This document shows positions 3,100-33,748 of a DNA stretch of 33,837 bases, piece after piece. A model generated the notes under the pieces. That model did not search any database and was not told where the DNA came from. It saw only the letters and a list, made by a program, of their open reading frames with translations. This DNA is from a virus. The position numbers and the translations under genes are program-made. Where the stretch lies: positions 1 to 33,837 of IMG/VR virus record IMGVR_UViG_3300045136_000201. One strand, written 5' to 3'. Every line of letters starts with the position of its first letter. Positions within the stretch are counted from its first letter, which is position 1.

Positions 3100-3434
3100 C
3101 GCTTGGAGAAAAGCCCAAGCAGGTTCTTGAGCACGTCGGCCGCGTTGTAGGTGAGGCCGAGCTCGAAGGCGAGCGTCGCACCGAGAAGAATCACGCGGCC
3201 CACGACGCGCAGCGCCTCCAGGTTCAGCGCGCCCTCGACGCCGACGATGTCCCCGATGCGAACGCTGAACGGCTTGATGTTCTCCTGCTCTTCCATCTCG
3301 ATCCTTTCCACTCGGACGGTTCCCGGAGCCGTCATCTCGGCGTCCAGGAGCACAGCGATGTACGCGAGCGCGTCCTCCTCCCTGTCGAACTCCGCGATGA
3401 GAGCGCCGTCGGAGACGACGCGGTAGAGGGTCAT
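3096..3434 (-). CDS. Putative membrane protein of the lysis cassette
   Basis: This is a 112-residue protein starting at an ATG that overlaps the previous stop (ATGA). The N-terminal half (YRVVSDGALIAEFDREEDALAYI) looks like a small soluble alpha/beta unit. The C-terminal half has a hydrophobic stretch (about 78-97, VVGRVILLGATLAFELGL) and an amphipathic end. An internal ATG at 3296 has its own SD (GGAAAGGA), so a shorter second product (about 66 residues, mainly the membrane part) may be made in a dual-start manner. Position between two other small membrane genes supports a lysis role. Confidence 0.6.
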   Translation of the reverse strand: MTLYRVVSDGALIAEFDREEDALAYIAVLLDAEMTAPGTVRVERIEMEEQENIKPFSVRIGDIVGVEGALNLEALRVVGRVILLGATLAFELGLTYNAADVLKNLLGLFSKR

Positions 3435-20270: not shown

Positions 20271-21452
20271 CTACGTAGCCGAGTAGGACGTGATGCCCTT
20301 CATGATGCCGTGGGCCTTCTCCTGCGCCAGCTCGAACGAGTACACGGTGCGGTACTCGTGGACGACGCCGGTCACGTCCGGCGGCTCGATGTTCATCCGC
20401 AGCTTCGTGTTGAAACCGCGGAGCGGGCGGAACTTCACGTAGTCGAGGTCGACCAGGAACGCGTAGGTTCCGAAGCCCGTGCCCGTCTTGCTGAGATCCT
20501 GCCACTCCCGCTTCACGATCACGGGGATGGAGGTCCCGTAGGTCGAGTGCAGGAAGGCATTCACGTGCGCGCCGAACAGCCGGTTGTTGCCCGGCTCGGT
20601 CGGCTGCCACTTGTCCCGGTACATCTGCGAGAGGACAGTTGCGACCCTCGGAGCGACGAACAAAACCTTGTTCATCGACCCGACGCCGAACGGGCCCTCG
20701 AGGAACGTGTCGAACTCTGCGGGCGTGAGAGCGCCCTGAGCGTTCTCGACGTTCGTGGTGATGAACTCGAGGAGGCCACCAGCCGAGCCGCGAGGCCCAG
20801 GCGAGGCGTTCGTGTCGAGATCCCGAGCGCCGAAGAAGAGGCCCGACTCGATAGCACGGGTGTGCTCGACGAGCTTCTTCTGCTGCTCCGTCTCCGGCTC
20901 GCGACCGGAGTACATTTCGATGGCCGTCTCAACGTCCGAGAAGGCGAACTGGTGCCGCTCGTCGGTGAGATAGTTGAACTGAACGACCTTCTCCACCACC
21001 CGGGCGGTGCCGGAGCCGGCGTACTCGGCCGAGACGTTGGCCACGATCATGAGCTGAGCCCCGCTGTCCGAGGAGGCGGCCGCCTTGTCGCCCCAGCCGC
21101 GCACGACTCCGATGGAGTTCGCGGAGACGGAGGTGACGAGGTACGCCTCGAGGGTCAGCGTGTTCCGCACAACGTCGTTGACGCGGAACACCGTGTTGCC
21201 CTCGCCCGTCGAGACGGTAAGAGCGGTGTCTGCGGACGTAGCCGAAGTCGCCAGCGTCGAAACGCGGGGCATGAGCTCGTCCTCGACCCACTCGACCTTG
21301 CGGGCCACAGCGTCCTTTGAACCGAGGCGTCCAAGCAGAATGCGGAACTGAGCCTCGTCCGGCTGGAGCTCGAAGACCTTGTCGTCGACGTCCCGAACCT
21401 GGACGGCGGTGTTCGCATTCGAAGTCTGGACGCCCGTAAGAACGGTTGTCAC
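20271..21452 (-). CDS. Major capsid protein, DUF5309-like
   Basis: This is a 393-residue protein from a GTG start (GGGAG ten bases upstream). The N-terminus has DDKVFELQPDEAQFRILLGRLG, as in DUF5309 / SU10-type capsid proteins (…I..L.P...PF...LG). Mid-region SAEYAGSGTARVVEKVVQFNYLT and the C-terminal VKFRPLRGFNTKLRMNIEPPDVTGV also match that family as I recall it. These form the HK97-fold shell. Place after a scaffold-like gene and portal agrees. It is flanked by GC-rich hairpins on both sides. Confidence 0.85.
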   Translation of the reverse strand: MTTVLTGVQTSNANTAVQVRDVDDKVFELQPDEAQFRILLGRLGSKDAVARKVEWVEDELMPRVSTLATSATSADTALTVSTGEGNTVFRVNDVVRNTLTLEAYLVTSVSANSIGVVRGWGDKAAASSDSGAQLMIVANVSAEYAGSGTARVVEKVVQFNYLTDERHQFAFSDVETAIEMYSGREPETEQQKKLVEHTRAIESGLFFGARDLDTNASPGPRGSAGGLLEFITTNVENAQGALTPAEFDTFLEGPFGVGSMNKVLFVAPRVATVLSQMYRDKWQPTEPGNNRLFGAHVNAFLHSTYGTSIPVIVKREWQDLSKTGTGFGTYAFLVDLDYVKFRPLRGFNTKLRMNIEPPDVTGVVHEYRTVYSFELAQEKAHGIMKGITSYSAT

Positions 21453-22353: not shown

Positions 22354-22666
22354 GACGGTTGATCCTTTCCTGGTCGCTTAACGCCCTCTCGAGCGCCTTC
22401 TCGGCCGAGTCGGGGGCGTGTAGGATCGCCTGCACGCCGGCCCAGAAACCGGCCGTGTAATCGACCCTCCGTTGGTTCACGGGTTGGGCCGAAAAGACGA
22501 GCTGCTGCCTGCCGAGGTACTCGGAGAGCTCTCGGCGGCGTCGCTCGTAAACCTCCTTGAGTAGCTCCCACCTCGTGTCACGGGACAGCGAGGCGATCTG
22601 GGCTATGACGTTCGGGTCGAGGTCTGAGTAGATCCGCTCGCGTCTAGCCAACGTTGTTCGCGCCAC
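22340..22666 (-). CDS. Small hypothetical protein between portal and scaffold
   Basis: This is a protein of 108 residues from GTG 22666, or 103 from TTG 22651. It is helical and rich in Arg and Glu (RDTRWELLKEVYERRRRELSEYL, ALERALSDQERINRLV). It overlaps the portal end and the scaffold start, so translation is coupled on both sides. Position suggests a head-assembly accessory. No family is recognised. Confidence 0.65.
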   Translation of the reverse strand: MARTTLARRERIYSDLDPNVIAQIASLSRDTRWELLKEVYERRRRELSEYLGRQQLVFSAQPVNQRRVDYTAGFWAGVQAILHAPDSAEKALERALSDQERINRLVSD

Positions 22667-24545
22667 CGGTCAGAGCGAGGGCGCGCTGGAGGAACTGCTC
22701 GCCGCTGCCGCTGATCGGGGACGACGGGGACATGGGGGACGTGGCAAGCTCGCTCGTCACCCCGTTCCCGGACGCGATCACGCCGTTCACGGAGGCACCG
22801 GGGATCTCCCCTCCTCCGCCGCCTCCGCCTGCGCCGGCCATCATCTGGGCCATCGCGGGTGGCGGCTGGGTGGAGAAGTACCTGTCGATCGAGTCCTTGT
22901 CGAACGCGCGGAACAGGTCTGCGACGAGCTCGCGCATGTTCGGGTACACGCCGACGCTGACGAGGTTCGGGAGCATGTTGCTGACCGCGGTGACGAGCTG
23001 GATCGCCTCCGCCCGCTTCTCCTGGCGGACGAGGCTCTCCATGACCGGCTCGATGTTCACGACGTAATCCATCTGAATGTCATCGGGGAACACGCTCTCG
23101 AACTGGATCGCGCCGTCCTGGCCGATGCGGGGGATGAGCTTGGGGGCGTCGAGGAACTGCTGGTCGAGGCCGAGCATCTGCGTGCCCATCTCCTCGGCCC
23201 CGTAGAGGACGTTCTGCTTCTGGTGGGCGATGAGCCGCTGGGCGATCGTGGTGATGATCGCCGCCGCCGTCGCGGTCTCCGCGTCGATCTGCGTGTTCGG
23301 CCCCGACGGGGGCACGCCGCCGGAGACGAGGTTCTGGAGGTCGGCCTTGATCAGCGCCTCCGCCTCCAGGGAGTAGCGGGCAACGTCGCCGTTCGGCGTC
23401 CACGGCACGACCTGGGTGGCGTCGCTCACGGGCCACTGTGCGCCGGGGAAGAACTCGAACGCCTCGAAGTCCTGGGCGTCGTCGCGGATCATGAAGATCG
23501 CGTTGTTGATCAGCCGCAGGTTGTCGAGCCGCTGGTTCATGATCGACCAGAGGTACTCCTGCAGCTGCGCGACCTTCTGCGTCAGCGAGATGCCAGGGAT
23601 GCGGAACGGGTACGTGCTCGTAGAGGAGAACGCGTAGGGCTTGCGCCCGTGCCAGAACGGGTTCTTGCGGTCGTGCGGGTCGATGTGGACCCGCCGGTTC
23701 GCGACCGTGATCTTCTCCGACCCGTCGCGCGACCAGAACTCGAGAAGCTCGACCCGGCCCCGGGTCTTGTTCTCGTTCCAGAGCTCCTCTTCGAGGTGGC
23801 GGAAGTCATCCGTGATGATGTTCCGCTCGTACTCGTCCCGATCCATGGGGATCTGGTCGATGTTCTTGTAGTAGCCGAGCTTCTCGAGCTCCCTGAGCTG
23901 ATCGATGGTGACGAAGGACTGCTGGATGATCCAGGTGTCCTCCGGGCAGGTCGCCGACTCCTCGAAGATGAGCGAGCGAACGTCGACGACTTCGATGCAC
24001 GGCCCCTCGAACATGGTGGCCTCGATCTCCTCGGGAATGTAGTCCTCGCCGATCTGCTCCCCCCAGATGTCCGTATACACCTCGAGCCGCTTGCGCTTCG
24101 TCTTGCGCTTCTCGACCTTCCAGTACTGCTTCGTGCAGGTGAGCCCGGTGATGACCGCCTGCATCATCCACGGCCGCGCGCACTTCGCATGGAACCGCGC
24201 CTGGTCAAGCTGCGCCTGGAGGAGTAGCTCGGCCGCGCGGGCCCCCTCCATGAGCCGGTCGATGTCCTGGGAGTTCGTGAGAAGGGGCCACGGCTTGAGC
24301 TTGAAGCTCATCCGGTCGTCGAGGAGGCTCGCGACGACGCCCTCCACGATCTGCATCGCGTAGGGCGGGGTCAGCTTGGAGGTCCACTGGAGAACGTCGG
24401 AGGCTTCCTCCTTGCGCTCTACGACGCCGAGGTAGGTGCGGTACCGATCCTCGATCGTGGAAACCCACTGCTCGTGGTGGGGCTTCTCGTCGTAGAGGTG
24501 CCTGAGGACGAGCTCGACGGCTGGGTCGCGTTCCTTCTTAGCCAA
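22644..24545 (-). CDS. Portal protein
   Basis: This is a 633-residue protein from TTG 24545 (overlapping the previous stop). The N-terminal half has WTSKLTPPYAMQIVEGVVASL and a wing region with GLTCTKQYWKVEKRKTKRKR. The centre has the long stem and crown helices typical of podovirus portals (SLTQKVAQLQEYLWSIMNQRLDN), followed by VPPSGPNTQIDAETATAAAII. The tail end is Gly/Pro-rich. The ring of 12 copies is the DNA entry pore and binds terminase and adaptor. Order terminase-portal-scaffold-capsid supports the call. Confidence 0.85.
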   Translation of the reverse strand: MAKKERDPAVELVLRHLYDEKPHHEQWVSTIEDRYRTYLGVVERKEEASDVLQWTSKLTPPYAMQIVEGVVASLLDDRMSFKLKPWPLLTNSQDIDRLMEGARAAELLLQAQLDQARFHAKCARPWMMQAVITGLTCTKQYWKVEKRKTKRKRLEVYTDIWGEQIGEDYIPEEIEATMFEGPCIEVVDVRSLIFEESATCPEDTWIIQQSFVTIDQLRELEKLGYYKNIDQIPMDRDEYERNIITDDFRHLEEELWNENKTRGRVELLEFWSRDGSEKITVANRRVHIDPHDRKNPFWHGRKPYAFSSTSTYPFRIPGISLTQKVAQLQEYLWSIMNQRLDNLRLINNAIFMIRDDAQDFEAFEFFPGAQWPVSDATQVVPWTPNGDVARYSLEAEALIKADLQNLVSGGVPPSGPNTQIDAETATAAAIITTIAQRLIAHQKQNVLYGAEEMGTQMLGLDQQFLDAPKLIPRIGQDGAIQFESVFPDDIQMDYVVNIEPVMESLVRQEKRAEAIQLVTAVSNMLPNLVSVGVYPNMRELVADLFRAFDKDSIDRYFSTQPPPAMAQMMAGAGGGGGGGEIPGASVNGVIASGNGVTSELATSPMSPSSPISGSGEQFLQRALALTGGANNVG

Positions 24546-24964: not shown

Positions 24965-26677
24965 CTAGCTCCAGACGTAATCGCGCCTGTACGGGCGCGT
25001 CTTTGGCTTCGGCTTCCGCGGGTGCTCGCCCCGCTGGCGGTACATCTCGCACGCGATAGCCGCCGCCATTACGAGGTCGTCGTTGCAGCCCTCCATCGCC
25101 CGCGGCCACGTGCCCGTGGGGCTCTTACCCGTCCTCGGGTCGAACCGCACGAACGTCCCCATCTCCGAGTGAAGCTTGGGGGTCAGCCAGGCGAGCGCGT
25201 GCTCGCGCAACGCCTCTTCCAGGTACTCGAGCACCGGGGCCCGGGTCGCCTTGTTCATCGGGAACCCGAACTGCTTGTGCTCGAGCTGGTCGGGGCGGAC
25301 GAACTGCCGGTGCCGGTACAGGCGCGGGTAGGCGGGCCTGCCCTCGCGGCCGTCGCGGAGGGCGATGATGGTCGCGTTCCCGAACCCGCCCGCGTCCTCC
25401 ACGGCGATCAGCGCCGTGTTGTACCAGCGGCCGAGGTAGTGCAGCTGCTCCGCGAACTCGTCCGTGTCGAGCTTCCCGTGGAACTCCGCGCAGAACGCCA
25501 TGTCCTGCAAGTCGATGACGTACGCGGCGGAGAAGTCAAGGCCGTGCCCGGTGGCCACGTCCGCGCCGATCGCGTACTGGTGGTCAGCCTCGGGCTCGCG
25601 AAACACGGTGATCCAGCCCTTCGGGTCCTTGACAAGCCGGGCCAGGCCGGTCTTGCGGAGCTCGAACCGGCCCCGGTAGAGCGGCTCTGGGATGCGCTGC
25701 GCGTACCAGTAGAGCGCGCTCTTGTCGAACCAGCAGGCGTCCGTGATCTCGAACGCCTCCTCCGGGGTGGACGGGTACTGCTCCTTCCGCTCCCACTCCC
25801 GGAGGTTCAGGATCTCCGGGCTCTTCTCCCACTCCTCGTCCCGGTCCGGGTGGAACCAGTACGGGAGGAAAAGCGTTGCCAGGCCGATCTCGTCGGCCTT
25901 CGACCACAAGTAGTGAAAGTAGTTGCCGGCCCCGGTGAGCTCGTTGTAGACGCCGTTCGCGGTGGAGACGATGAAGATCTTGCCCTCCTGGCCGGCGGCG
26001 GAGGAGACCGACTTCATGATCGCCGGGGGGTTCTCGACCCAGGCGAACTCGTCCAGAAGAACGAACGCCGCCGTCTTACCCATACCGGAGGCGTCAGCTG
26101 ACGACTGAGCGAGAATCTGGGACTTCTTCCCGTCAGGGAACAGGAACTCGATCCCCTGCTTGGAGACCCTCACCTCCGCCCCGTTCAGAAGATGCGGGGG
26201 AAGGGAGCGAACCTGCACGGCGGCGCGCTCCACAAGCTCCTTCGCGTCCGCCTCCTTCTGACGGTAGAACAGGCTCAACGAGCCCGGCCGGTACAGGCTC
26301 ACCCACACGCCGTAGCCGCAGCCGAGCCAGGTGACGCCAAGCTGGCGCGCCTTGAGCACGATCATGCGCTGGGATTCGAACAGCGTGTCGATCAGCTGCC
26401 GCTGCCACGACCAGGGCTCGAACCGCTGATCGGGCTTGCGCCAGTCCCACGTCCCAGCAGGGGGGTTCATGTTGAACCGGAACGCGCCCGAGCCCGAATC
26501 GGCCACGCGGCGCTGATCCCAGCACTCCATGTGCTCGAGCAGGTGCGCCGGGTGCCTGCCGGCCCGAACCCGCTCCTCTAGACGCTTGAGCTCCTCGAGC
26601 TCGAGGAGAAAACGCTCCTGCTCCTCCGGGGGGAGCTTCTGAAGCTCCTCCCAGGTGGGGAGAGCCGCTGTTGCCAA
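24965..26677 (-). CDS. terL: Terminase large subunit
   Basis: This is a 570-residue packaging motor from TTG 26677. The ATPase domain shows a Walker A-like KARQLGVTW (109-117), Walker B VLLDE (206-210) and coupling motif STAN (238-241). YPSTPEEAF (301-309) is the usual linker. The RNase H-fold nuclease has Asp373 (GADVATG), Glu427-Asp428 (AVEDAGG) and Asp533-Asp534 (NDDL). It cuts and pumps DNA into the portal. An N-terminal helical extension of about 80 residues may bind the small subunit. Confidence 0.93.
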   Translation of the reverse strand: MATAALPTWEELQKLPPEEQERFLLELEELKRLEERVRAGRHPAHLLEHMECWDQRRVADSGSGAFRFNMNPPAGTWDWRKPDQRFEPWSWQRQLIDTLFESQRMIVLKARQLGVTWLGCGYGVWVSLYRPGSLSLFYRQKEADAKELVERAAVQVRSLPPHLLNGAEVRVSKQGIEFLFPDGKKSQILAQSSADASGMGKTAAFVLLDEFAWVENPPAIMKSVSSAAGQEGKIFIVSTANGVYNELTGAGNYFHYLWSKADEIGLATLFLPYWFHPDRDEEWEKSPEILNLREWERKEQYPSTPEEAFEITDACWFDKSALYWYAQRIPEPLYRGRFELRKTGLARLVKDPKGWITVFREPEADHQYAIGADVATGHGLDFSAAYVIDLQDMAFCAEFHGKLDTDEFAEQLHYLGRWYNTALIAVEDAGGFGNATIIALRDGREGRPAYPRLYRHRQFVRPDQLEHKQFGFPMNKATRAPVLEYLEEALREHALAWLTPKLHSEMGTFVRFDPRTGKSPTGTWPRAMEGCNDDLVMAAAIACEMYRQRGEHPRKPKPKTRPYRRDYVWS

Positions 26678-28079: not shown

Positions 28080-28090
28080 TACACGCCTGT

Positions 28091-28165
28091 GCGCGCCTGT
28101 GCACGCAAGCGCGCCCGTGCGCGCCTGTGCACGCAAGCGCGCCCGTGCGCGCCTGTGCACGCACG
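28091..28165. repeat. 28-bp tandem repeats of alternating purine-pyrimidine
   Basis: Units begin at 28091, 28119 and 28147. The first two are identical and the third diverges after about 18 bases. Each carries GCGCGCCTGTGCACGC, a run of alternating purine and pyrimidine that favours Z-DNA, and the palindrome GTGCAC. The array has no spacers and is not a CRISPR. It resembles iterons or a packaging-recognition array. Confidence 0.75.
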
Positions 28166-28209: not shown

Positions 28210-28230
28210 CTAGCAGGAAATCCCTGCTAG
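28210..28230 (-). terminator. Hairpin over the stop of the small-terminase candidate
   Basis: CTAGCAGG (28210-28217) and CCTGCTAG (28223-28230) form an 8-bp stem with a 5-base loop. The stop codon lies in the arm. No T-run follows on the minus strand. Confidence 0.4.
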
Positions 28231-28682
28231 TCGCGGGAATCCGGGCCCGTGATATCCGTCGAAATCCCGTCCTGCCCGCTCAGGACACGCTCGAGCTCCG
28301 CGCGCATGCGCTCATAGCGCGCGCGCAGAGCCTCCTCGGTGGCCGGCTCGTACGCCTGGGCCTGCTCGATCCTCTGCGTGGGCTTGCCCCACTCGCGATC
28401 GAGCACGGAGTCGGCCGCGCGCAGCGCGGGGTGCGCGTCCCCTTGCCCGGCCAGGTAGGCGCGTAGTGCCTTCTCGTGCGCCTTGAGAGAGAGCGGGACG
28501 AGATCGCGCAGGGCTAGCTCCTCGGCCTTCTTGCGCCTCTCTCGTCTTGCTTGGCCGCTGCGACGTCCTAGCTCGCGTGCCTCCTCGGTGGTGCGTGCTG
28601 GCCTGAGGTTGGCGAGGCTGTTCGGGTGGATCTTCGGCTTGGGCTTGTCTGGCTTGTCTGGCGTGTCTGGCTTGTCTGGCAT
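28227..28682 (-). CDS. Candidate small terminase or DNA-binding protein
   Basis: This is a 151-residue protein from ATG 28682 with GGGGG upstream. It starts with repeated PDKP units, then NSLANLRPARTTEEARELGR and RSGQARRERRKKAEELALRD, a basic helix. A helical region (SLKAHEKALRAYLAG, AADSVLDREWGKPTQRIEQ) follows. The last part (REWGKPTQ) is common in small terminases and in DUF5681-like proteins. Position upstream of terL and next to a repeat array agrees. The frame extends further upstream, but the operator and promoter lie there, so I chose the ATG. Confidence 0.5.
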   Translation of the reverse strand: MPDKPDTPDKPDKPKPKIHPNSLANLRPARTTEEARELGRRSGQARRERRKKAEELALRDLVPLSLKAHEKALRAYLAGQGDAHPALRAADSVLDREWGKPTQRIEQAQAYEPATEEALRARYERMRAELERVLSGQDGISTDITGPDSRD

Positions 28683-28703: not shown

Positions 28704-28730
28704 GAAAAGTTCGCTATTTGCGGACTTTTC
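28704..28730. promoter_or_regulatory. 27-bp palindromic operator, copy 1
   Basis: The left arm GAAAAGTTCGC and right arm GCGGACTTTTC flank TATTT. The arms are complementary except for one position. The -35 of the plus-strand promoter starts four bases further on. Copies 2 and 3 share the arms and the TATTT centre. Confidence 0.8.
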
Positions 28731-28734
28731 CTGC

Positions 28735-28763
28735 TTGACACGTGCCGGGCGGTCGTGTAGTGT
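28735..28763 (+). promoter_or_regulatory. Promoter, TTGACA-17-TAGTGT
   Basis: The -35 is perfect (28735-28740) and the -10 is TAGTGT (28758-28763). It drives the gene at 28801. Transcription should start near 28770, at GTCAGCAGCC, a leader start that is also found after the second promoter. Confidence 0.8.
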
Positions 28764-28800
28764 CACGCCTGTCAGCAGCCTCCTACGAAGGGAGAGAACG

Positions 28801-29007
28801 ATGATGACGAGCGCCGACAAAGGGCCGTACGCGGTAGTCGTCGCCAGCGAGGCGAATGTCTACATCGATACGCGGGGCGATCTCGGTGGGGCGATGCGAG
28901 AGTTCGACGATCTCGACGAGGCGCGCGCGTTCGCCGAGTCGGTCGCCGGCGACTACCACTACGGCGTCGAGATCGTGGACTTGAGCACCTGGGAGATCGT
29001 GGATTAG
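28801..29007 (+). CDS. Small acidic plus-strand protein
   Basis: This is a 68-residue protein from ATG 28801 (GGGAGAGAACG upstream). The pattern YAVVVASEANVYIDTRGDLG, then DLDEARAFAESVAGDYHYGVEIVDL predicts a beta-alpha-beta fold. It is strongly acidic, as are many phage host-takeover or anti-defence proteins. That comparison is only suggestive. It has its own strong promoter with palindromic operator and is followed by terminators, so it is an independent early-type unit. Confidence 0.75.
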   Translation: MMTSADKGPYAVVVASEANVYIDTRGDLGGAMREFDDLDEARAFAESVAGDYHYGVEIVDLSTWEIVD

Positions 29008-29029
29008 ATCTCGCCCGCCCCGTGACGGG

Positions 29030-29100
29030 CTGCTGACAACTCCCCTTCACCGGGGTGTCAGCGAGAGAATGGGGGTCGCTTCGGCGGCCCTCATTCTTTG
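29030..29100 (+). terminator. Two hairpins ending the 28801 unit
   Basis: The first hairpin pairs GCTGACA with TGTCAGC around the 3' end of the leader (about 29030-29060). The second (29066-29096) pairs AGAATGGGGGTCGC with GCGGCCCTCATTCT across TTCG and is followed by TTTGGG. The second is a good terminator and could also serve the opposite strand. Confidence 0.6.
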
Positions 29101-29108
29101 GGCGGAGT

Positions 29109-29273
29109 TCATGCGCAAGTTCCCCGACGCGCACCCGGCTCCATGCTGTTTAGACCCACCGCCCGCATGGCCGAGCAGGACGGACAGCACCACGCCTCGA
29201 GGTCGTTCCCGTAGATGGGGGCGAGGACGGTCGGTTGCCGCGCCGGCGGGGTGTTTACGCTTGCGATTCCCAT
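29109..29273 (-). CDS. Possible small zinc-motif protein
   Basis: This possible 54-residue protein has ATG 29273 and SD GAGG seven bases upstream, the SD lying inside operator copy 2. It contains EAWCCPSCSAM, a CxxC-type site, and a further Cys near the end. It would be transcribed divergently from the 29316 promoter. The order mirrors copy 1, where a minus gene also starts beside the operator. It is uncertain because it is short and the plus-strand reading is also open. Confidence 0.4.
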   Translation of the reverse strand: MGIASVNTPPARQPTVLAPIYGNDLEAWCCPSCSAMRAVGLNSMEPGARRGTCA

Positions 29274-29274
29274 T

Positions 29275-29301
29275 GAAAACCTCGCTATTTGCGTACTTTT
29301 C
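29275..29301. promoter_or_regulatory. 27-bp palindromic operator, copy 2
   Basis: The arms are GAAAACCTCGC and GCGTACTTTTC around TATTT. The -35 of the next promoter begins 14 bases further on, exactly 10 bp more than in copy 1. Confidence 0.8.
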
Positions 29302-29315
29302 GCACTAGGTGGCCC

Positions 29316-29344
29316 TTGACTTCCCGTTTAAGCAGTGATAGTCA
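29316..29344 (+). promoter_or_regulatory. Promoter, TTGACT-17-TAGTCA
   Basis: TTGACT (29316-29321) and TAGTCA (29339-29344) are 17 bp apart. It drives 29381 and 29421. The predicted start near 29351 begins the same TGTCAGCAGC leader as at 28770. Confidence 0.7.
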
Positions 29345-29380
29345 TGTTCTTGTCAGCAGCTCGTTAACGAAGGAGGAGAC

Positions 29381-29446
29381 ATGGACGCGCAAGGAAACCC
29401 TCATGGCAGGAGGACTCCTGATGACTCGCACGCGCGCCACAATTGA
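29381..29446 (+). CDS. Short leader reading frame
   Basis: This 21-codon frame has the best SD of the unit (AAGGAGGAGAC then ATG) and ends 26 bases after the start of the next gene in another frame. The peptide (MDAQGNPHGRRTPDDSHARH and one more residue) is hydrophilic and has no recognised family. It may couple or limit translation of 29421-29753. It could also be the only purpose of its strong SD to load ribosomes. Confidence 0.45.
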   Translation: MDAQGNPHGRRTPDDSHARHN

Positions 29447-29753
29447 GCACCTGCGCCGGTGCCAGGCTATGCGCGCCGCCGGGCTGCCCGTCTCTTACAC
29501 AACCGACCCCGGCTGGCTAGTCGAGCAGGCAATCAACCGCCGCGCGGGCTGGCTAGAGGATGGCCACACGCGGGGAACAACCAAGCCGATCAACGGCAAG
29601 CTTCCCCGCAAGGCGCGCGGCGACTGGCAGCGCACCTTGCGGCTGATCGCGGACGAGATCAACACGCCACGTCTCATTGTGCGCGTGCAGAGGCTCGGCG
29701 AGCATCGCTGGCTAGCGGAGCGGCTTCCACACAGGTTCGAGGACGCAGAGTGA
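29421..29753 (+). CDS. Plus-strand hypothetical protein
   Basis: This is a 110-residue protein from ATG 29421 (AGGAGG, seven bases). It is helical and basic with RATIEHLRRCQAMRAAGLPV, then DPGWLVEQAINRRAGWLED and RGDWQRTLRLIADEINTPRL. The pattern resembles small uncharacterised actinophage proteins from early regions. I do not recognise a function. It is controlled by operator copy 2 and followed by a strong hairpin. Confidence 0.7.
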   Translation: MTRTRATIEHLRRCQAMRAAGLPVSYTTDPGWLVEQAINRRAGWLEDGHTRGTTKPINGKLPRKARGDWQRTLRLIADEINTPRLIVRVQRLGEHRWLAERLPHRFEDAE

Positions 29754-29783
29754 CCCCGGCCGGATTGTAAACGCTCGCCCCCT

Positions 29784-29830
29784 ACCGGCAGTGGTCGCGG
29801 AGTTTCCCGGCTCCTGCGACCACTGCCGGA
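29784..29830 (+). terminator. Perfect 14-bp hairpin after 29753
   Basis: CCGGCAGTGGTCGC pairs perfectly with its reverse complement, with a second small stem GGAG/CTCC inside the loop. It lies about 30 bases after the plus-strand gene. No T-run follows, but its position between convergent genes supports termination. Confidence 0.5.
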
Positions 29831-29895
29831 GGCGTGTCCGTCCGGAACGGACGCGCCTGGCCAGCAGCAGCCTGGCCGAGCGCAGGGCGGAAAAA

Positions 29896-29931
29896 GAAAG
29901 CCCCGGCCTTCCGTAGAAGCCGGGGCCCGTA
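29896..29931 (-). terminator. Intrinsic terminator for the methyltransferase unit
   Basis: On the minus strand GCCCCGGC pairs with GCCGGGGC over an 11-base loop and is followed by TTTCTTTTT. It lies 50 bases beyond the stop of 29981-30415 and should end the leftward early transcript. Confidence 0.75.
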
Positions 29932-29980
29932 AAAGCGCAGCCGAGCTCGCATCTAGGCCGTACGGCCGCGACGGCCCGGA

Positions 29981-30415
29981 TTACGCGGCCTCCCGCCTTG
30001 GTTCCCCCGGGGCCCAGGGGGCGCGGAACGCGCTCGTCCTGTCTTCTGGCTTGGGCTGCTGCTCCGCCCAGGCGGCCCATGCCCGCTCGAACTCGTAGAA
30101 CATCTGCCAGTCTGCGGCTACCACTGGCCCCGGGTAGTGCTGCAGGTGGGTGATGGTGAGCGTCTCCGGGTTACCGTAGACGATCAGGCAGGTGCGGCCG
30201 TCTCGCACCCGGGCTTCCATCGTGTACTTCTGCCCGCGCTCGAGGCGCTCGCCTGTCCGTTTGCCCTCCACGCAGAGGAAGCGGCCGTTGATTTCGGTTT
30301 CGCTATCTTGATCTGCGTGGGTGATGCCGCGGGGGAACGGGTGGCGACCCACGTGGAGGCGTAAACCACGGTCGAAGTCCCATCTGGCCGCCCGTGGGTT
30401 GCGAAGCTCTGCCAT
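29981..30415 (-). CDS. Conserved hypothetical partner of the methyltransferase
   Basis: This is a 144-residue protein. The ATG at 30415 overlaps the previous stop (TGATG). It has beta-rich segments (LRLHVGRHPFPRGITHADQ, INGRFLCVEGKRTGERLERG, QKYTMEARVRDGRTCLIVYG) and a C-terminal helix. Coupling suggests that it acts with the methyltransferase, for example in a modification or anti-restriction function. I do not recognise a family. Confidence 0.65.
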   Translation of the reverse strand: MAELRNPRAARWDFDRGLRLHVGRHPFPRGITHADQDSETEINGRFLCVEGKRTGERLERGQKYTMEARVRDGRTCLIVYGNPETLTITHLQHYPGPVVAADWQMFYEFERAWAAWAEQQPKPEDRTSAFRAPWAPGEPRREAA

Positions 30416-31464
30416 CAGGTGCGGCGGACTACCAGCCCGAACGGGCCGAAGGACGCCAGAAAGCCCTCGTCATGGGGGCCGATGTAAAGGACGGCCTGGC
30501 CCTGCAAGGGTGCTGACACCTTCGAGGGATGCCAGAAGCGCACGCGCCCCCTGGGGAAGCAGATAGCCGATGCGGCGCGCCCGAGTGTCTGGAACCACTC
30601 CGTCTCGGTGGCGTTGTTTACGAGCACGCACGCCTGCGTGACGCGCCCAGCGCGGTACTCGTCCACGAGCTTCGCCGCGAACTGGGCGATGAGTGGTTGC
30701 GCGTAGGGCGGGTTCATCCACACGCGCCCGTGCCAGTCGCGCTCAAGCGAATTGTCGCCCTCGGCGAAGAACAGGCGAGCGTTTACAACCGCGTTGGCCG
30801 CGGCCGTCGAGGCGGGATCGAGATCGATCGCCCCCATCGTCGCAACGGCCGCGGCGATGTACTCGGGCGGCGTGTACCACTCGTTGTCACCCGAGTTGTG
30901 CGCGACGTGGGCGCCCTTAGCCCGTGGCCCCTCAGGCTCGGGTGCGGCAGCCGCACTGGTCTCAAGATCGGCTTGAATAGAGGCCTCTTGTGCCACGGGT
31001 GCGTCATTTGACGCACCCCCGGCCCCAAGATCGGCTTGAATAGAGGCCTCTTGTGCCACGGGTGCGTCATTTGACGCACCCCCGGCCCCAAGATCGCGCC
31101 GAATAGTTACTTCGGCGAACCCCAGCGCCCGGGCCGTGGCACGCTGTGACGCCCGGAGCTCGGCAAGCTTCCGGGCGAGGCTCTTGCGCTGCTCGACAGG
31201 GAGCCTGAACTCGGAGAGATCGATCGTTGCGAGAAAGGCGTTAATGTCGTCGAACCCGTCGCCGGCACGCCTCCAACGATCATCCTCGAGCAACCACTCG
31301 AGCTCCGCACAGGCGCGCTCGAACGTGTAGCCGCTGATATGCACGGCTTCGAGGAGGCGGCCGTGGACCGTGGTTGGTGTCTCCCGATGCTCGTTTCTGG
31401 GCAACAAAAAACCCGCCTTCTCGGCGGGCTCGTGAGCGCGCGTGCCCCCTAGCGTGCTACTCAA
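30415..31464 (-). CDS. HTH-DNA N6-adenine methyltransferase fusion
   Basis: This protein has 349 residues from TTG 31464 (GGAGG seven bases upstream). Residues about 35-125 end in an HTH-like [20 protein letters not shown]. Residues about 127-168 hold two 21-residue repeats from a DNA duplication. The C-terminal domain is Dam-type (phage N6A methyltransferase): [10 protein letters not shown] (194-203), DLDPAS (214-219), NPPY (251-254). It would methylate adenine in DNA, protecting it from restriction or controlling genes. An intrinsic terminator lies near codons 12-19. If the true start is a later TTG (codon 20 or 21), the terminator lies in the leader instead. Confidence 0.8.
30964..31096 (-). 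repeat. Two identical 63-bp tandem repeats inside the methyltransferase gene
   Basis: Copies 30964-31026 and 31027-31089 are identical, and a third copy starts (AAGATCG). The period is 63 bp, so the reading frame is kept and encodes two 21-residue repeats. Each copy contains a perfect 10-bp inverted repeat GGGTGCGTCA/TGACGCACCC with a TT centre (30997-31018 and 31060-31081). It separates the HTH and methyltransferase parts. Confidence 0.95.
31406..31428 (-). terminator. Intrinsic terminator near the start of the methyltransferase gene
   Basis: On the minus strand CCCGCC and GGCGGG pair around GAGAA and are followed by TTTTTTG. The hairpin begins 36 bases after TTG 31464. It is a textbook terminator and a likely attenuator, or it ends an upstream transcript if the gene actually starts beyond it. 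Confidence 0.8.
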
Positions 31465-31488
31465 GCATCGTCCTCCCGCTCGCTCATC

Positions 31489-31500
31489 GCTGTATACAGC
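31489..31500. promoter_or_regulatory. 12-bp palindrome with TATACA
   Basis: GCTGTATACAGC is a perfect palindrome 25 bases before the methyltransferase start. The minus strand TATACA could be its -10; the -35 is weak. A repressor or an adenine-methylation-independent switch could bind here. The role is inferred. Confidence 0.4.
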
Positions 31501-31535
31501 CCGTCTCCAGAGCAGGCTCCGCCCCTGGGACGTCT

Positions 31536-31552
31536 CCCCGCCCAGGCGGGGG
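31536..31552. other. Short GC-rich hairpin
   Basis: CCCCGCC and GGCGGGG are separated by CA. It stands between divergent transcription units (methyltransferase leftward, 31683 unit rightward). It has no T-run on either side. Confidence 0.35.
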
Positions 31553-31568
31553 TACCCCGAGCATAGCA

Positions 31569-31595
31569 GAAAAGCTCGCTATTTGCAAACTTTTC
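31569..31595. promoter_or_regulatory. 27-bp palindromic operator, copy 3
   Basis: The arms are GAAAAGCTCGC and GCAAACTTTTC around TATTT. The -35 begins 24 bases further on, exactly 10 bp more than in copy 2 and 20 more than in copy 1. Confidence 0.8.
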
Positions 31596-31619
31596 TTCTC
31601 GTGGCCGGCCCAATATCGC

Positions 31620-31648
31620 TTGATTCCGGACGGGTAGTGGTATACGCT
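31620..31648 (+). promoter_or_regulatory. Promoter, TTGATT-17-TACGCT
   Basis: TTGATT (31620-31625) and TACGCT (31643-31648), within GGTATACGCT, are 17 bp apart. It drives the three plus-strand genes 31683-32344. The start should be near 31655. Confidence 0.6.
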
Positions 31649-31682: not shown

Positions 31683-31805
31683 ATGGAGATCACGCCAGAG
31701 GCAGCCACCGCAGCCCTCGAGGGGCTGCGGTGGCCAAAGATTGATGTCCGCCTCTCGGCGGCGGACAGAGAGTGGCTCGAAGAAAACTGCCCCTACGCAC
31801 TCTGA
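31683..31805 (+). CDS. 40-residue plus-strand protein
   Basis: This small acidic protein starts at ATG 31683 after AAGGAGG. It reads EITPEAATAALEGLRWPKID then VRLSAADREWLEENCPYAL, with two predicted helices and one Cys. It is the first gene of the copy-3 operator unit. No family is recognised. The promoter, SD and close spacing to the next gene (13 bases) support expression. Confidence 0.65.
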   Translation: MEITPEAATAALEGLRWPKIDVRLSAADREWLEENCPYAL

Positions 31806-31817
31806 AAAGGAGGAGCC

Positions 31818-32021
31818 GTGTCGGAGAAAGGGGAGCCCGGTGCGCGCGGTGAATCCCAGTCACCCGCTGGCGCGTTCAGCCTGACGGGCCAGCGGGTGCG
31901 ATCTGTTCGTTACCGGGATGGGGTAACGCTCATCGAGACGCACGAGGGATGGGAGTACGAGCTAGTGGGCGAGCTGCGCGTGCTCCGGTGCGCGCCCCGA
32001 GACGAGGAGATGGTGCTGTGA
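31818..32021 (+). CDS. 67-residue plus-strand hypothetical protein
   Basis: The GTG at 31818 follows AAAAGGAGGAGCC. The disordered N-terminus is Ser/Gly/Glu-rich. The C-terminal half (GQRVRSVRYRDGVTLIETHE, then GWEYELVGELRVLRC) predicts a small beta sheet. It overlaps the next GTG by four bases (GTGA). No family is recognised. Confidence 0.65.
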   Translation: MSEKGEPGARGESQSPAGAFSLTGQRVRSVRYRDGVTLIETHEGWEYELVGELRVLRCAPRDEEMVL

Positions 32022-32344
32022 GCTACTACGATCCGTACGAGTTAGCCCTCGAGACGCGGGACGTGTCGATCCTCGAGGTTGGCTCGTCCCCGGTGCCCAA
32101 GCAGGTGAGCCCGGAGTCGTGCCGGGAGGGCTTGCGGGAGGCGGGGGCACGACGGGCGCTTGCCCGCATGCTCGCCGCGGAGGCGGCGCTGGACCTGGCC
32201 GACTGGGTGCGCGCGGCCCACGAGCAGGGGCTCTCGGTGACGGAGATCGCACGGCTGGGACGGCTTACTCGCCGTTCCGTGTACATCATGCTCGAGGGGG
32301 CCAGTAGCGGGCGAGGACTCGAACCTCCCGGCACCGGCTTATGA
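32018..32344 (+). CDS. HTH-containing plus-strand protein
   Basis: This is a 108-residue protein from GTG 32018. Residues about 63-95 (DWVRAAHEQGLSVTEIARLG then RLTRRSVYIML) form a helix-turn-helix as in resolvases and small regulators. It could bind the palindromes or regulate the early units; that link is inferred. The last 12 codons and the stop lie within the tRNA on the opposite strand. It ends the copy-3 operator unit. Confidence 0.65.
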   Translation: MSYYDPYELALETRDVSILEVGSSPVPKQVSPESCREGLREAGARRALARMLAAEAALDLADWVRAAHEQGLSVTEIARLGRLTRRSVYIMLEGASSGRGLEPPGTGL

Positions 32345-32375
32345 GGCCGGCCGAGCCACCTGGCTCTACCCGCTG
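32304..32375 (-). tRNA. tRNA with anticodon CAU (Met-type, initiator-like)
   Basis: The cloverleaf is acceptor AGCGGG/CCCGCT plus a C1-A72 mismatch, D-stem GAGC/GCTC with a short loop containing GG, anticodon stem CCGGC/GCCGG with loop CTCATAA, and T-arm GAGG-TTCGAGT-CCTC. C1-A72 and A11-U24 are marks of initiator tRNA; the GGG/CCC anticodon-stem pairs are only partly present. A lysidine-type tRNA-Ile is the alternative reading of CAU. CCA is not encoded. One T-stem pair (49-65) and the short D-loop are imperfect. Confidence 0.75.
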
Positions 32376-33283: not shown

Positions 33284-33748
33284 TTAAGCAGCCTCCTCAT
33301 ACGCTTCCGTGTCACGCCGACCGGTATGACCCCGGCGCGGCACGCCGTTCGCGATCAGAATGCGACGCACCGCCCTCCCGGCCGTGCTCGGGGTCCTGTA
33401 TCCCAGAAGCTCGTAGAGCTCCTGCGCGATCGCGTCGATGGACTTGCCGCCAAGGTAGAGCCTGACCACCTCATCCTCCGGGACGGGAGGAGGAAGAACA
33501 CCAGCCAACTCCGTGTGCCACAAGGCCGGGTTGATCTCAGTCACGATCCTGTCAGCCACCGAGACCGACACGGTGGACTGCTCGCCGCTCAAGATCCCGC
33601 GCAAGCGCCTCTCCGGCACCCCCGAGCGCGCCGCGAACACCGTCAACGGCTCCCCGGTCTCATCGAGAGCCCGCCGCAGCACCCGCGCGATCGGGGCAGA
33701 CAAGACCGTGTCACGCTGATACCTCACGTAATCAAGCCCCCTGCTCAA
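33284..33748 (-). CDS. Double-HTH DNA-binding protein
   Basis: This is a 154-residue protein from TTG 33748. Residues about 20-65 form an Xre-like HTH (TVFAARSGVPERRLRGILSG). Residues about 92-130 form a second HTH (VVRLYLGGKSIDAIAQELYE then TAGRAVRRILIANG). It is a good candidate regulator of the palindromic operators. A start at a later codon is possible; the TTG overlaps the upstream stop region. It belongs to the minus early unit. Confidence 0.7.
   Translation of the reverse strand: MSRGLDYVRYQRDTVLSAPIARVLRRALDETGEPLTVFAARSGVPERRLRGILSGEQSTVSVSVADRIVTEINPALWHTELAGVLPPPVPEDEVVRLYLGGKSIDAIAQELYELLGYRTPSTAGRAVRRILIANGVPRRGHTGRRDTEAYEEAA

Follow-up and report, generated by a model that had tools for sequence, protein, structure and literature searches.

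Three copies of a 27-bp near-palindrome stand before plus-strand promoters in the virus record IMGVR_UViG_3300045136_000201, and the same motif, promoter layout and helical phase are found in this phage and in bacteria of one order. The window analysed here is the whole record, 33,837 bases with a G+C content of 66%. The reading favoured in this study, from sequence comparison, is that a conserved host protein probably occupies the site, touching RNA polymerase from one face of the helix, and serves three plus-strand operons of the phage. A sequence-only reading of the window had placed three 27-bp palindromes 4, 14 and 24 bp before plus-strand -35 elements with 17-bp spacers, and every coordinate and gap was confirmed by reading the sequence. 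The sites and their promoters are as follows (scores are from a matrix built on bacterial sites only).

28704 to 28730, plus strand: site 1, 27-bp near-palindrome, GAAAAGTTCGC-TATTT-GCGGACTTTTC, 4 bp before the -35, 38.4 bits
28735 to 28763, plus strand: promoter 1, TTGACA (28735-28740)-N17-TAGTGT (28758-28763); TAGTGT also occurs at bacterial small-RNA promoters
29275 to 29301, plus strand: site 2, 27-bp near-palindrome, GAAAACCTCGC-TATTT-GCGTACTTTTC, 14 bp before the -35, 33.1 bits
29316 to 29344, plus strand: promoter 2, TTGACT (29316-29321)-N17-TAGTCA (29339-29344), the -10 being weak
31569 to 31595, plus strand: site 3, 27-bp near-palindrome, GAAAAGCTCGC-TATTT-GCAAACTTTTC, 24 bp before the -35, 34.1 bits
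31620 to 31648, plus strand: promoter 3, TTGATT (31620-31625)-N17-TACGCT (31643-31648)

The centre TATTT and the inner TCGC and GC are invariant across the three sites. The left arm of site 2 and the right arm of site 3 depart from the arm consensus quoted earlier. A strict scan of the window for the sigma-70 consensus recovered none of the three promoters. Their assignment is supported by the nearly constant distance from the start of the -35 to the probable ATG (66, 65 and 63 bp, for ATGs at 28801, 29381 and 31683), by TGTCAGCAGC, which follows the -10 at promoters 1 and 2, and by an ACGAAGG-type ribosome site before the ATG behind all three; the promoters were therefore not chosen arbitrarily. 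In bacterial promoters of this type the -10 reads TAGATT, TAGGTT or TAGTGT, and the TAGTGT of copy 1 and the TAnnnT of copy 3 agree with these. When the window was scored with the matrix, which was built from 63 bacterial sites and no phage sites, the three phage sites ranked first to third and the next place scored 11.5 bits, while the best score over 60 first-order Markov sequences with the dinucleotide content of the window was 17.7 bits. Taken alone, the step of 4, 14 and 24 bp is weak statistics (about 2%, an estimate that takes gaps of 0 to 40 as equally likely and the bacterial phases as targets). It becomes strong evidence because the bacterial spacings match.

The bacterial copies were reached through a chance match. 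There were no close DNA relatives of the phage in the phage collection, the exact phage motif was absent from other IMG/VR records, and a looser palindrome search of IMG/VR returned only terminator-like matches. A genome-wide scan for an exact 20-mer gave 7 scattered matches, about the chance level. The match in Thermoleophilia (L013) was rejected as a real module, being a half site without a promoter and probably due to chance; a search of its class led to the first bacterial module (L018), in which the site GAAAAGTCCGC-AACGA-GCGCACTTTTC is followed by 14 bp, TTGACC, 18 bp and TAGAGT. The label "Thermoleophilia" used here comes from the record of L013 and from the class and order delimited around that record, and the order examined is that of the genome carrying L018, with 129 genomes. 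Within the order the palindrome search found 18 of the 129 genomes versus 1 with a reversed control, and a general module pattern found 39 versus 3 with its control. Of the 18 genomes with the palindrome, eight had the same promoter layout on inspection, with gaps of 4, 13 and 14 bp. The strict module was present in 8 of 399 genomes of the class, 6 inside the order and 2 outside; one locus outside (L348) has a gap of 14 bp, but without the small RNA described below. In the phylum as a whole, the strict palindrome occurred in 4 of 396 genomes, and one or more of these matches resemble a terminator. Outside the window, the site with its promoter occurs repeatedly in one Thermoleophilia order and once on a second IMG/VR contig (L331, IMGVR_UViG_3300047409_000304, 47.6 kb, 65% G+C). 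This contig carries one clear module at 3236 to 3262 (AAACTTCCCGCAAATAGCGAACTTTTC, then 12 bp, TTGACG, 17 bp and TATCTT), and no protein matches to the window were found in the part of it compared. A similar palindrome, 13 bp before TTGACA-N17-TATACT, was seen on a viral contig of 55% G+C (L343, 4123 to 4149), which may be coincidence.

The first bacterial module lies upstream of rmuC, with a small CsbD-like gene intervening in some species. The RmuC protein family is present in 96 of the 129 genomes, and rmuC loci were collected through the protein family rather than through the palindrome. About 80 regions upstream of rmuC were scanned for the palindrome without requiring a promoter, and the high-scoring sites had TTGAC 4 bp or 12 to 15 bp downstream; one weak site had it at 2 bp. 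A pattern that included the promoter found 24 sites, whose gaps to the -35 were 4 (10 sites), 5 (1), 12 (1), 13 (3), 14 (4) and 15 bp (5). The absence of gaps of 6 to 11 bp is informative because the pattern permitted any gap from 0 to 30 bp. Downstream of the site, the rmuC transcript opens with a strong hairpin and, directly after it, a T-rich stretch (L018, L024 and L033 to L037). This leader is possibly a short RNA or an attenuator before rmuC, and an Rfam search with it gave no match.

The second bacterial module lies upstream of an unannotated structured RNA of 107 to 123 nucleotides (examples are L187, L193, L185, L186, L198 and L025). Its two ends pair, and T residues often come after it. 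The consensus fold has 32 pairs, 10 of them with changes on both sides, and a covariance model (R1) finds the RNA in 106 of the 129 genomes, in up to six copies each. No Rfam family fits it, and a search of the literature on regulators or small RNAs of Thermoleophilia found nothing relevant. Most of these loci were found by the RNA model, that is, independently of the palindrome, and in about 100 upstream regions the RNA start was the sole guide in assigning 96 small-RNA promoters. The core site was upstream of 86 of these 96 promoters, and several of the other 10 keep a decayed site at the same place. The spacer is 17 bp in 79 of the 96 and the -10 is mostly TAGATT or TAGGTT. At the 86 promoters with a site, the gap to the -35 was 4 (2 promoters), 12 (7), 13 (50), 14 (21), 15 (5) or 23 bp (1), and none fell elsewhere.

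These spacings lie about one helical turn apart, and two of them can be found within a single genome. Copies of the small RNA have gaps of 4 and 13 bp, about a full turn apart, within one genome (G626 and G164), and rmuC with a gap of 4 bp coexists with a small RNA with a gap of 14 bp (G001 and G617). The site stays upstream of the -35 throughout, at 4, 14 and 24 bp in the phage and 4 to 23 bp in the bacteria, and the core promoter was never overlapped in the 86 small-RNA and 24 rmuC cases. The sequence-only reading had taken this layout for that of a class I-type activator. Its non-overlapping helical phasing is strongly supported by the bacterial gaps of 4, 12 to 15 and 23 bp, for which differences of whole turns hold in position rather than in activity, whereas activation is what we infer from them.

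The 63 bacterial sites have the consensus GAAA..CGC-N5-GCG..TTTC, with A/T tracts most pronounced at positions 3-5, 12-16 and 23-26, a spacing of about 10.5 bp, and CGC/GCG flanking the centre, a core that site calling required or favoured. With its A-tract, stem and T-tract the palindrome looks like an intrinsic terminator, which would insulate the promoter from upstream transcription, and some palindrome matches elsewhere do resemble true terminators. However, no opposite pair of arm positions in the 63 sites covaried clearly beyond shuffled columns or column composition, a result that tells against an RNA hairpin or terminator and agrees with a protein dimer. The arms of the second and third phage copies are also mismatched, the gene upstream of sites 1 and 3 points away from them, and a helical phase would be needless for such spacing; a terminator is barely conceivable here. 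An UP element or curved DNA, in which phased A/T tracts are bound directly by the alpha C-terminal domains of polymerase with no further protein, would account for tracts about 10.5 bp apart and in phase with the -35. An UP element is A/T-rich only, with no conserved G/C, and needs no two-fold symmetry, whereas the CGC and GCG by the centre are kept in almost all of these sites (with calling biased towards the core), and this explanation is very unlikely.

The genes and reading frames around the three sites are listed here.

28227 to 28682, minus strand: gene of 151 amino acids, divergent, starting 21 bp from site 1 (from the open reading frame and the sequence)
28801 to 29007, plus strand: open reading frame for a 68-amino-acid early-type protein behind promoter 1; family scans gave nothing convincing
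29381 to 29446, plus strand: possible 21-codon leader open reading frame with a ribosome-binding site, overlapping the next gene (from the sequence)
29421 to 29753, plus strand: open reading frame for a 110-amino-acid protein behind promoter 2; family scans gave nothing convincing
30415 to 31464, minus strand: Dam-type methyltransferase gene (PF05869, 8e-17; phrog_111, 7e-36), divergent from site 3
31683 to 32344, plus strand: operon 3, with open reading frames of 40 amino acids, of 67 amino acids (31818-32021) and of 108 amino acids, helix-turn-helix (HTH)-like (32018-32344)

Together the three sites plausibly mark out a single phage regulon made up of small plus-strand operons. The two HTH-like reading frames of the phage, at 32018 to 32344 within operon 3 and at 33284 to 33748, had earlier been named as candidate binders. 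Their proximity would suit a phage-encoded regulator that activates or represses the operons and competes at host promoters, the likeness to host sites then being mimicry. However, bacterial promoters throughout the order keep the site, which calls for a conserved protein of the host as the binder, and a binder found only in the phage fails because it leaves the bacterial sites unexplained. The HTH matches of both proteins are also weak (E values of 0.0004 to 0.03, below the Pfam cut-offs), a PDB search with both gave no useful relatives, and none of the three sites adjoins the 33284 gene. These two proteins are accordingly not supported as the primary binders, and it is distinctly unlikely that one of them is the regulator. 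Gene neighbourhoods did not settle which host protein would be the regulator.

Other features of the window were recorded in passing. The minus strand holds packaging and structural genes (terminase, 24965-26677; portal, 22644-24545; major head protein, 20271-21452). A 28-bp GC-rich unit forms a tandem array at 28084-28163, left of the early region (2.9 copies, 98% matches). A 63-bp tandem repeat (2.1 copies, 30963-31096) lies in frame within the methyltransferase gene and adds a 21-residue repeat. A minus-strand terminator-like hairpin at 31409-31431 falls within the listed start of the same reading frame, so that its true start is probably further downstream or its leader is attenuated. A tRNA-Met (CAT) gene on the minus strand (32304-32375) overlaps the 3' end of the plus-strand HTH reading frame.

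A member of this Thermoleophilia order is the probable host. Terminase relatives in metagenome-assembled genomes of the order reach 38 to 40% identity at best, versus 32% for the best IMG/VR match, and one of them is on a 43-kb contig (G112:C304; L205, L206) on which terminase, portal, capsid and glycosyltransferase are in synteny with the window.

Several points weigh against a host activator shared with the phage. The bacterial loci share ancestry, so their counts are not independent events and the Rayleigh p-value for the small-RNA gaps is not to be taken at face value; the coexisting spacings one turn apart, together with their repetition in the phage, make the stronger argument. The invariance of CGC/GCG is inflated, partly by construction, since the core was used in calling the sites. 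The syntenic 43-kb contig from the same order has no copy of the promoter module, and the binning of phage contigs into metagenome-assembled genomes is fallible. Finally, contact-type repressors also require phasing, and repressors too can act through phased contact with polymerase. A host-encoded repressor or silencer of this type would hold polymerase at the promoter, and the phage would stay silent or time its expression in a lysogeny-like manner; the position of sites 1 and 3 between divergent genes would agree with this. However, the lack of any overlap with the core promoter in the bacterial cases, and the resemblance of one of the bacterial transcripts served to a stable small RNA, make repression unlikely.

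It is most likely that the phage borrowed a host activator. In this model, a conserved DNA-binding protein of the host, probably acting as a dimer, would recognise the palindrome through major-groove contacts to CGC/GCG and through contacts to three A/T tracts (the outer AAAA/TTTT and the centre) about 10.5 bp apart. The protein would sit upstream of sigma-A-type promoters at positions differing by whole turns (centres near -53, -63 and -73), and would touch polymerase from the same face, probably at the alpha C-terminal domains, to aid initiation in a class I-like manner. In the host it may serve small-RNA promoters, those of the multi-copy 107-123-nucleotide RNA and of the hairpin transcript before rmuC, and by carrying the site ahead of three plus-strand operons the phage may have its early genes transcribed by unmodified host machinery. 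Protein binding, activation, alpha contact, early timing and host identity are steps that we infer. A broader statement holds that the Thermoleophilia have an undescribed global class I-type activator, with a p4/Fis-like target of 27 bp, which drives an undescribed family of multi-copy small RNAs, and that the phage captured the sites of this activator at three one-turn positions for its early operons; it has an even chance of being right. The arrangement offers a promoter code (site, whole helical turns, -35) that can be tested in a bacterial class whose regulatory biology is little known, and evidence from nature for helical-turn flexibility across three positions. It also points to a new regulator and an unannotated multi-copy structured RNA, and through regulation it connects a phage lacking close relatives in the databases with a host group.

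Comparison with known systems gives partial likenesses only. The stoperators of actinobacteriophage L5 are likewise repeated phage regulator sites near promoters, but they are asymmetric 13-bp sites of the phage repressor, whereas the present sites are palindromic, upstream and common to phage and host. The actinobacterial LexA (SOS) box, CGAAC-N4-GTTCG, overlaps the promoter and was ruled out because motif and position differ. Fis, at the stable-RNA promoters of E. coli, shares the A/T-rich centre, the flanking G/C contacts and the phased upstream placement; however, the Fis core has G/C at +/-7, and here CGC/GCG stand at +/-3 to 5. The likeness to CRP lies in upstream, non-overlapping sites about one turn apart, CRP acting in class I through the alpha C-terminal domain at sites assayed with centres from -60.5 to -82.5 (PMC6301791). 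The TGTGA-N6-TCACA half sites of CRP/FNR are not seen, however, and the site here is a 27-bp CGC-N5-GCG palindrome near -53, -63 and -73. Protein p4 of phi29 is phage-encoded. No p4 match was found among the early proteins scanned here, which make up part of the open reading frames. The p4 target CTTTTT-15-AAAATG (PMC3100819) has A-tracts of opposite polarity to the GAAAA...TTTTC of the present sites. In geometry, however, the two are strikingly similar, since the p4 target is also 27 bp long, has G at +/-13 and carries one central A-tract between two outer ones (PMC3100819), and the phage sites have the same length, the same G positions and three A-tracts.

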